Source of the DNA: a virus
DNA length: 45,024 bases
Reading direction: 5' to 3' (one strand)
Virus record (IMG/VR): IMGVR_UViG_3300044535_001032
Coordinates: 1-45,024 of that record
Shown: positions 39,906 to 43,518 of the stretch, in pieces
Layout of the letters: every line of letters begins with the position of its first letter
Position numbering within the stretch: the stretch's first letter is position 1
Notes under the pieces: generated by a model
Told to the model about the DNA's origin: nothing
Seen by the model: the letters and a program-made list of their open reading frames with translations, nothing else
Database searches by the model: none
Translations under genes and position numbers: made by a program

Positions 39906-40772
39906 CTAAAAAATATAACGGATTGTATTCCAAGGAATATACTTATCATGTAGCTCAACAAACTGTTTAATATAATCAGCTTTTCTGTTGTGCTCATATC
40001 TTATATTCTTACCACCATACTGAGATACTTTACTCTCTTGAATTTTGGGTACCCATAATAGTTCTTCTCCCGGAAGTTTATGTGCTAGATTATACTTGTG
40101 CTTGTCTTCATTATGAGTTAAGAATATTACCTCAGCTTTAACAGAATTTTGTGGCCAATGATTTATATAACAGTGCTTATTAATTATATCAAACAAAAAC
40201 TCATATTCAGCAAGCCAGTTGTCATGAACTATTACCGGACTAAAATTTAAATGAACTTCATAACCTGCATCAAGAAATCTTGGAACAGCATTAAGTCTTA
40301 AATCAATAGAACTAGTATTAGGTTCTAATTCTTTTCTCCATATTTCAGGCATCAGACTAAATCTTATTCTGATTTTACCTTCTGGGTTAAAGTTTAGTAA
40401 ATCTTTATTCACATACTTAGTAGCAAATGAACCCATAGCAAGTGGATGATCTCTGAAGAACTCAAAGATCTTTTCCCATTCATGATATTTAGCATGCAGA
40501 GCAAAGTCTTCATTACAGGATATATCATAAGTAATATATTCTCCTGTTTGATTAGGTTTCTCTACTGTAGAAAAATATGCATGTGAATTAATTTCTGTCA
40601 GGATGTCCATAGTATTTTTAGCTACAGATAATCCTTCCGGCTTATGTCTCTTCATATAACAATAAGTACAGTTATACAAACAGCCATGACCAAAGGAGGG
40701 ACTTATAAAATCAGTACTCCTCCCACTTGGTCTTATGATCATAGATTTTCTGGTAACTTTTTCAACTACCAT
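39906..40772 (-). CDS. Radical SAM protein, spore-photoproduct-lyase-like
   Basis: 288 residues from ATG 40772 (MVVEKVTRKSMI); starting at 40811 would overlap the tiny upstream gene. C31-x3-C35-x2-C38 in FGHGCLYNCTYCYM is the [4Fe-4S] radical SAM site. Further on come IRFSLMP, GYEVHLNFSPVIVHDNW, EVIFLTHN, ELLWVPKIQESK and YGGKNIRY, in the order of spore photoproduct lyase-family enzymes. SPL repairs UV thymine dimers (spore photoproduct) with SAM; related proteins of vegetative bacteria are less understood. It could repair phage DNA. Confidence 0.85.
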   Translation of the reverse strand: MVVEKVTRKSMIIRPSGRSTDFISPSFGHGCLYNCTYCYMKRHKPEGLSVAKNTMDILTEINSHAYFSTVEKPNQTGEYITYDISCNEDFALHAKYHEWEKIFEFFRDHPLAMGSFATKYVNKDLLNFNPEGKIRIRFSLMPEIWRKELEPNTSSIDLRLNAVPRFLDAGYEVHLNFSPVIVHDNWLAEYEFLFDIINKHCYINHWPQNSVKAEVIFLTHNEDKHKYNLAHKLPGEELLWVPKIQESKVSQYGGKNIRYEHNRKADYIKQFVELHDKYIPWNTIRYIF

Positions 40773-40773
40773 A

Positions 40774-40914
40774 CTATTCTGATTTATTTTTCCACTCTTT
40801 CCAAGTGTCAAAATCTTTAAGTTCTTCTATTTCTTTTTTCCATTCTATCTGGAGTCTTTTAGCTATAGCAAACATAATAAATGCTCCAGTAAGAAAACCT
40901 AATGTAAAATCCAT
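40774..40914 (-). CDS. 46-aa single-pass membrane protein
   Basis: MDFTLGFLTGAFIMFAIAKRLQ is a membrane helix with Lys/Arg after it, then an amphipathic acidic/basic tail (EWKKEIEELKDFDTW). N-out, C-in by the positive-inside rule. One base before the radical SAM ATG and one base after the next upstream gene, so it is a tightly packed operon gene. Confidence 0.7.
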   Translation of the reverse strand: MDFTLGFLTGAFIMFAIAKRLQIEWKKEIEELKDFDTWKEWKNKSE

Positions 40915-41890: not shown

Positions 41891-42169
41891 TTAAATAAGA
41901 TCTAGTTCTAACTCTTTCTCTTCAACTTTCTCAGCTTCAGCAAATAATCCTTCTATAGGAAGGAATCTACTGCTGTCATAATACTCATAAGGAAAAGATT
42001 TTTGTGTAAGACTAACTTCTTTCAGTCTAACTCCAAGTTTACCAGGTTGTAAACCCATATTGATAACTTCAACAACGGTATAAACTATACCTTCTTGTAT
42101 CCATTCATCTGATGATATTTTTAATGGTTTTTTACTAGAGTCAATACATATAACTTTCATAGGTTTCAA
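41891..42169 (-). CDS. Hypothetical protein, SH3-like beta barrel possible
   Basis: 92 residues: MKVICIDSSKKPLKISSDEWIQEGIVYTVVEV, then GLQPGKLGVRLKEVSL and a charged tail with an E-E-K-E-L-E-L-D-L-I end. The pattern is that of a small beta barrel often found in Bacteroidota phages (recalled, not verified). Either ATG 42169 or 42160 may start it; both overlap the ClpS-like stop. Confidence 0.65.
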   Translation of the reverse strand: MKPMKVICIDSSKKPLKISSDEWIQEGIVYTVVEVINMGLQPGKLGVRLKEVSLTQKSFPYEYYDSSRFLPIEGLFAEAEKVEEKELELDLI

Positions 42170-42395
42170 TTTCTGTTTTCAGGTCTAATTCTTCAAAGTT
42201 ACTTTTTAACTCAAATAAATCTAAATAATCACCTGACTTAACAGCACATTTTCCTACATTATGTGTTATCAATGCACATTGCTCTGCCTGTAATGGCTCA
42301 TGTTCACAATATCTTATTAAACATGCTATTACATATAAAAAATCATGAGAATCATCATTATACAATACTAACTTATGTGTTTTTGTATCTTCCAT
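42141..42395 (-). CDS. ClpS-like N-degron adaptor
   Basis: 84 residues. KLVLYNDDSHDFLYVI (N13-D14-D15) is the ClpS N-degron-binding motif, followed by HEPLQAEQCALITHNVGKCAVKSG (32-55) with H45 in the position of the conserved ClpS His and the 'QAEQC...GKC-V-K-G' string typical of Bacteroidota ClpS. ClpS delivers substrates with destabilising N-terminal residues to ClpAP. The phage copy lacks the long N-terminal extension. It could redirect host proteolysis, or be a dominant competitor. Next to the SF2 helicase, separated by a terminator. Confidence 0.85.
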   Translation of the reverse strand: MEDTKTHKLVLYNDDSHDFLYVIACLIRYCEHEPLQAEQCALITHNVGKCAVKSGDYLDLFELKSNFEELDLKTEIETYESYMY

Positions 42396-42410
42396 ATAAC
42401 TTCAATATAC

Positions 42411-42443
42411 AAAAAAATCAGGGTTAATCTATGTTAACCCTGA
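42411..42443 (-). terminator. Intrinsic terminator overlapping the helicase stop codon
   Basis: Perfect 10-bp stem TCAGGGTTAA/TTAACCCTGA (42418-42427 with 42434-42443), 6-nt loop, followed on the minus strand by seven T residues. It contains the stop codon and last codons of the helicase gene. Confidence 0.85.
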
Positions 42444-43518
42444 AATCTTTCCATGCAATTTTATTTTGATCAAAACCTTCTAAAGCTTCTTTTACCCATT
42501 TTTCATCTACAGTATCCATGTAGCATAGAATGTGTACAATAGCCTTATCATCCGGATTTAATCTTAATAATCTACCAATTCTTTGACTTGCTTTCCGCTC
42601 ATTACCATAAGCATGAAGAATAATACCCTGTTTAAGATTAGGAATATTTACACCCTCATTCAACTGCAATACAGTTGAGAGTTTAGTAATCTGACCTTCT
42701 TTAAACATCTGAAGGTTTTCTTCAGAAGTATTATTATTACTATGATAACTATGCGGGCAAAGCTTATCAGCCTGTGCTTGTGTGTTTGCAAATAGAATGC
42801 ACTTACTATCTATAGAGTCAAATAAAATCTTAGCATACTTCTCTTTAGTAGGATACTCCATCATTGCTTTCATTCTCATAACTCTCAATATATGAGTAGG
42901 TCCTGAGCCTGTATCAATACGGGTGCCCCAATATGAATAATTCTTTTCTTCTGAAGTAGGGAATTTCTTTCCCTTGGATTCAACCATGTAATTATTCTTA
43001 TTGCTTAGATGAAGCTGATGTACAATAATTTGATAATCATTGAGTATTTTATTTTCTATAGCATCATCTGCACCAAAATTAAATACTATTGGACAAAACT
43101 CAGCTACTAGACGGCCCTTTTCAGAATCTCTATACTTAGGTGGAGTACCTGTTAAACCAAGTACTCTACCTTTGTAATTTTCCAAGAACTTTCTGTGACT
43201 GTCTAGTAGACTGTGAGCTTCATCTAGATAAACCAACTCATAATCATTAGGATTATGCTTGCTAAGACTTAGATAAGTTGTAAATGTTACTCTCTGTAAA
43301 AGATGATCCATGCCAAATTTCTCAGCATCATCTTTCCAGGACTGAAAAATAGATTTCTTTGGTGCAACAACAAGTACTCTATCTAATTGAGTAGAGTTTT
43401 GTTCTATATGTGTTAGGCCTACCAGGGTCTTTCCAACCCCGGTACCTAACACCACACCACATCTGATCTTATTTTTAGTTGATTCTAATGCTTTTGCTTG
43501 AATCTCATCTTTTGTCAT
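42424..43518 (-). CDS. SF2 DEAH-type helicase
   Basis: 364 residues. Motif I GTGVGKT (25-31), motif II DEAH (99-102), motif III-like GLTGTPP (121-127), and motif VI QRIGRLLR in the C-terminal half (residues ~325-333). This is the minimal UvsW/RecG-like or restriction-type DExx phage helicase layout. Probably remodels forks or R-loops, or works with the ParB-like and HNH proteins beside it. ATGA overlap with the ParB-like gene. Confidence 0.88.
   Translation of the reverse strand: MTKDEIQAKALESTKNKIRCGVVLGTGVGKTLVGLTHIEQNSTQLDRVLVVAPKKSIFQSWKDDAEKFGMDHLLQRVTFTTYLSLSKHNPNDYELVYLDEAHSLLDSHRKFLENYKGRVLGLTGTPPKYRDSEKGRLVAEFCPIVFNFGADDAIENKILNDYQIIVHQLHLSNKNNYMVESKGKKFPTSEEKNYSYWGTRIDTGSGPTHILRVMRMKAMMEYPTKEKYAKILFDSIDSKCILFANTQAQADKLCPHSYHSNNNTSEENLQMFKEGQITKLSTVLQLNEGVNIPNLKQGIILHAYGNERKASQRIGRLLRLNPDDKAIVHILCYMDTVDEKWVKEALEGFDQNKIAWKDFRVNID

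Follow-up and report, generated by a model that had tools for sequence, protein, structure and literature searches.

The virus contig IMGVR_UViG_3300044535_001032 encodes a ClpS that consists of the core domain without the N-terminal extension (NTE), and this short form is shared across a large group of viruses that infect aquatic Bacteroidota. The window, meaning the whole stretch of 45,024 nucleotides that was analyzed, is identical in extent to this IMG/VR virus record. By analogy with work on Escherichia coli, the phage protein is tentatively read, at just short of an even chance, as a delivery-deficient ClpS that would tie up N-degrons and/or the host unfoldase ClpA/ClpC and slow the host N-degron pathway.

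The ORF (Table 1) matched the ClpS family PF02617 with an E-value of 1.5e-13 (50.8 bits against a cut-off of 23), and the same cut-off was also exceeded by the clade members tested. An earlier note on this DNA had placed a ClpS-like ORF here, and the position was confirmed to the nucleotide, with the gene on the minus strand. The best score against the NCBIfam equivalogs PRK00033 and PRK13019 was 17.2 bits, below the cut-offs of 112–149, in a scan with the window protein only. An AlphaFold model based on an alignment of the window ClpS, its relatives and host proteins had a pLDDT of 91.3 and a pTM of 0.80, with strands at residues 7–12, 49–55 and 73–78 and helices at 19–30, 34–47 and 57–69, which is the strand and helix order of ClpS. 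Solved ClpS structures ranked top for this model in Foldseek and VIA-align, with Z-scores of 13–15.3 (15.3 to Mycobacterium smegmatis ClpS and 13.0–14.4 to E. coli ClpS), while the L7/L12-type fold of shared arrangement scored below 10. In a phmmer search of PDB sequences, designed TPR proteins were listed above ClpS, but these were repeat-summed chance matches of about 8 bits or less each and were discarded. The NDD and ITH..GKC motifs, described earlier as intact, were found at residues 13–15 and 43–50, and N13, D14 and H45 align gap-free with N34, D35 and H66 of E. coli ClpS.

Table 1. Features of the ClpS locus and of other regions of the window.
Feature	Coordinates	Strand	Remarks
ClpS-core protein without NTE, 84 aa	42141–42395	-	ATG start; PF02617 match; AlphaFold model
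Asn13-Asp14	42354–42359	-	Equivalents of E. coli ClpS N34-D35 (N-degron alpha-amino contacts)
His45	42261–42263	-	Equivalent of E. coli ClpS H66
Third helix, residues 57–69	42189–42227	-	ClpA-facing helix in E. coli ClpS; helix in AlphaFold model; unlike host ClpS
In-frame TGA two codons upstream of the ClpS ATG	42402–42404	-	...TAT TGA AGT TAT ATG GAA...
SF2 helicase gene directly upstream of ClpS	42424–43518	-	PF04851, DEAD, Helicase_C
Small protein downstream of ClpS	41891–42160	-	MKVICIDSS...
SPL-like radical SAM protein	39906–40811	-	PF20903, E=1e-24
First giant ORF, 3741 aa	1651–12876	+	
Second giant ORF, 2546 aa	12867–20507	+	Weak LysM match

A departure from host and E. coli ClpS that the earlier note overlooked was the short N-terminus. 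Only 12 residues precede the ligand Asn in the window protein, compared with 33 before N34 in E. coli. In the VIA-align superposition, model residue 1 falls at E. coli residue 22, so that nothing in the phage protein corresponds to E. coli residues 1–21, and other residues stand in place of Pro24-Pro25. The disordered NTE that enters the ClpA channel, a feature of N-degron adaptors, is thus absent from the window ClpS, and it is absent clade-wide. A missed upstream start is excluded for the window by the in-frame TGA, and in-frame stops likewise exclude an NTE of host length in 49 of the 74 short-NTE phage proteins; an additional upstream in-frame ATG occurred in five of the 74. Among the matches listed, 71 of these 74 sequences have an ATG at exactly the 12-residue position. 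In all 75 of the closest host ClpS, the ligand Asn is preceded by no fewer than 23 residues (23–44), and 24–70 were counted in 25 parseable ClpS from a sample of Bacteroidota genomes, which was drawn across the phylum by the Pfam model and not by likeness to the phage protein. Most other phage ClpS also have about 23 residues or more.

Viral relatives were collected in three scans, which returned 32 loci, 302 loci (with an alignment) and 419 loci (with a host-type alignment, overlapping the others). The matches listed included at least 105 non-identical viral ClpS, 74 with a short and 31 with a long N-terminus; one of the 105 came from a huge phage record (L034). In trees built from the core alone, both with the C-terminal tail kept and with it removed, the short sequences clustered. 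A single branch held 71 of the 74 with support of 100/99, and one clade for all 74 was not rejected (p-AU 0.39). Loss of the NTE is therefore an old, inherited state and not an annotation slip, as the shared start position, the in-frame stops and the clustering in core trees indicate. ClpS is present in single copy, and nearly all short-NTE loci that hold this flank have the same helicase just upstream. Some long-NTE ClpS of related phages lie near the same genes, although not directly behind the helicase. The median pairwise dN/dS in the short clade was 0.29, which points to purifying selection; this value, the single copy and the fixed locus together argue for a long-lived gene. The relatives recovered in the viral scans, the dN/dS, the conserved gene order and the confident ClpS fold also place the window ORF beyond chance.

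The surroundings are those of a phage. ClpS lies in a minus-strand replication and repair module with genes for a helicase, ParB-like, HNH, uracil-DNA glycosylase-like and SPL-like radical SAM proteins, DnaB, primase, a Sak4-like protein, PolB and an exonuclease. It is probably part of an operon, given the 28 bases that separate the helicase gene from the ClpS start and the overlap of the last 20 bases of ClpS with the start of the next gene. That small downstream gene adjoins ClpS in most short-NTE loci, and profile searches with its product returned no known family; in two loci (L167 and L185) the two are separated by an ORF about 240 codons long. An early-region location, as first proposed, is plausible from position alone. 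Host contamination is ruled out by the phage neighbors and the fixed synteny. The closest phage relatives of the helicase are mostly Flavobacterium and Bacteroides phages, and these, along with the ClpS relatives, support the Bacteroidota host that the earlier note had assumed. A search for the PF03237 terminase, made to classify the phage, gave no match in five contigs.

Two other regions of the window deserve mention. Among relatives the SPL-like gene may be present, missing or shifted; its product, where encoded, is mostly 72–96% identical and often better conserved than its neighbors. The two giant ORFs had almost no Pfam or PHROGs match apart from the LysM similarity in Table 1. The DxDGD RNA-polymerase motif was not found in either of them, and the second had no match in the phage collection.

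The pocket is kept in the short-NTE proteins. Alignment with host ClpS recovered the same ligand residues and needed no gap between the ligand Asn and the last strand. The ligand Asn, Asp and His are kept in 100, 100 and 96% of the 74 short-NTE phage ClpS among the matches listed, and each in 100% of 75 host ClpS. Other pocket positions in the clade are host-like or conservative, with Phe/Tyr at E. coli M40, Val/Ile at V43, Ala at M62 and Ala/Thr at V65. These strongly conserved ligand and pocket residues and the modeled ClpS fold support the earlier prediction that the protein binds N-degrons. The His is replaced in three clade members, by Asp in L008 and L024 and by Asn in L141, and in these N-degron binding may be lost or changed.

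Outside the pocket, helix 3 is conserved within the clade but unlike that of the hosts, which have L-K-P at positions 60–62 where the phage proteins have M/L-F/L-E followed by L/I-K. Helix 3 contacts ClpA in E. coli ClpS (PMC12493166). It could not be mapped gap-free onto the E. coli protein, and the placing of E. coli E82/K84 is ambiguous. The changed helix might reflect a partner interaction that is altered or lost. A C-terminal tail, YESYM(Y/H), is conserved in the phage ClpS and absent from most hosts; it was set aside as a new functional element, since the start of the next gene overlaps it in most loci and its sequence is variable in loci without that overlap (L191, L026–L028).

Comparison with known systems delimits what is new. 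Bacteroidota chromosomal ClpS are about 40–60% identical to the phage protein over the matched segment, but have a longer NTE and a different helix 3, and usually end right after the last strand. E. coli ClpS (PDB 3o2b, 2wa8, 1mbu) shares the fold and N34/D35/H66 at only 20% identity, the phage protein being shorter around helix 3 and lacking the NTE. Phage-encoded ClpS have already been annotated in the jumbo phages PA5oct, Atu_ph07 (gp708), Phosso and SCTP-2, and were proposed to act in takeover as delivery adaptors to host ClpAP (PMC7824862, PMC6102473). The takeover role suggested in the earlier note is thus not a new idea. These are unrelated large phages of Proteobacteria, and the ClpS of PA5oct, Phosso and SCTP-2 have 25–26 residues before the Asn. 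Some phages carry ClpX or further Clp proteins as well; in Pseudomonas phage PA5oct (L306) ClpS lies near genes for ClpX, S21, a heat shock protein and FtsH, a protein-turnover cluster. A ClpS-like protein of Vibrio phage 2.275.O (AUS02627.1; L309, 1492–1848) also has 12 residues before the ligand Asn, but it has Asp in place of His and a long C-terminal extension and belongs to an unrelated isolated phage, so that its NTE loss is possibly convergent with that of the short-NTE clade. A further parallel is E. coli delta-NTE ClpS, likewise a core without NTE, which escapes ClpAP degradation (PMC12974527) but is a laboratory truncation and not a natural protein. Literature searches found nothing on ClpS together with crAss phage, and nothing on phage ClpS without an NTE in literature that included few subscription papers. 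Phage-encoded ClpS and the takeover idea are already known; the novel part is the NTE-less form.

The phages do not appear to bring a Clp system of their own. Neither ClpP (15 related phage contigs searched) nor a Clp N-domain or L/F-transferase (13 contigs each) was matched in contigs that may be incomplete, and a complete phage Clp system was rejected on these grounds. Unless such genes are merely absent from the contigs, the phage ClpS would thus have to act on the machinery of the host. Candidate host genomes had Clp_N unfoldases in 10 of 10 cases, a domain that is also present in ClpB, and L/F-transferase in seven of 10; four of 10 had a match to the ClpA model that was continuous and nearly full-length, although below its equivalog cut-off.

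In E. coli, the NTE enters the ClpA channel and is gripped by the pore loops, and pulling remodels ClpS and transfers the substrate; delivery is inhibited when NTE entry is blocked, and ClpS hinders N-degron degradation if the ClpA pore loops carry mutations that make remodeling defective (PMC9663308). Truncation of the NTE abolishes ClpAP degradation of ClpS in vivo (PMC12974527). A natural core with a pocket and without an NTE would therefore be expected to bind and hold, and not to deliver. Under the delivery-deficient reading, the phage ClpS would bind N-degron proteins in its intact pocket and would probably bind the N-domain of host ClpA/ClpC, yet would leave the pore loops without a tail to pull. 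Substrates would be held in competition with host ClpS, the phage protein would escape its own degradation, and host N-degron proteolysis would be slowed or retuned in infection. For the phage ClpS we infer peptide binding, unfoldase binding, the failure of delivery and the benefit to the phage. The earlier note had left steering and blocking open; blocking is now favored, the NTE needed for E. coli delivery being missing clade-wide.

One point against a delivery-deficient protein is that the NTE requirement is one of E. coli ClpAP, and Bacteroidota ClpA/ClpC might accept a tail-less adaptor. Helix 3 unlike that of the host, the His lost in three members and the upstream ATG in five of 74 sequences also weigh against it, as does the possible incompleteness of the phage contigs, from which a ClpP or Clp_N gene could have dropped out. 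If the Bacteroidota unfoldase has no need of an NTE, the phage ClpS could be a working adaptor that brings host or phage N-degron proteins to host ClpAP/ClpCP, a role already proposed for jumbo-phage ClpS (PMC7824862) and consistent with the strongly conserved pocket, the ClpS fold and the Clp_N unfoldases and L/F-transferase of the hosts. We consider such delivery rather unlikely, though possible, as the NTE is uniformly lost in the phage clade, and the stretch of at least 23 residues kept in the 75 close host ClpS and in the parseable phylum sample suggests that the host machinery uses it.

The conserved but host-unlike helix 3, at the E. coli ClpA contact, would fit a modulator directed at ClpA/ClpC, acting mainly by occupying the unfoldase N-domain (a specificity switch or a blockade of other adaptors) with N-degron binding secondary. 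The loss of the His in L008, L024 and L141, and in the ClpS of two jumbo phages, Vibrio phage 2.275.O and Atu_ph07, points the same way. Retention of this His in most of the clade suggests that ligand binding is important there, and the helix-3 residues have no one-to-one match to the E. coli contacts, which makes this explanation improbable. A pocket function independent of Clp, in which a single phage or host N-degron protein is protected or sequestered, would also account for a conserved pocket beside a missing NTE and a changed helix 3. It is the hardest to credit and seems very unlikely, as no partner can be named and the overlapping downstream gene, although conserved, is of no known family.

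Little is understood so far of what N-degron proteolysis does for bacteria. Should many phages retain a ClpS that binds and does not deliver, the N-degron pathway probably matters in infection, and if this is true, its targets could be identified with phage ClpS as the trap. A stable, natural NTE-less ClpS would also allow the pulling model of delivery to be tested cleanly, and could serve directly as an N-degron trap.
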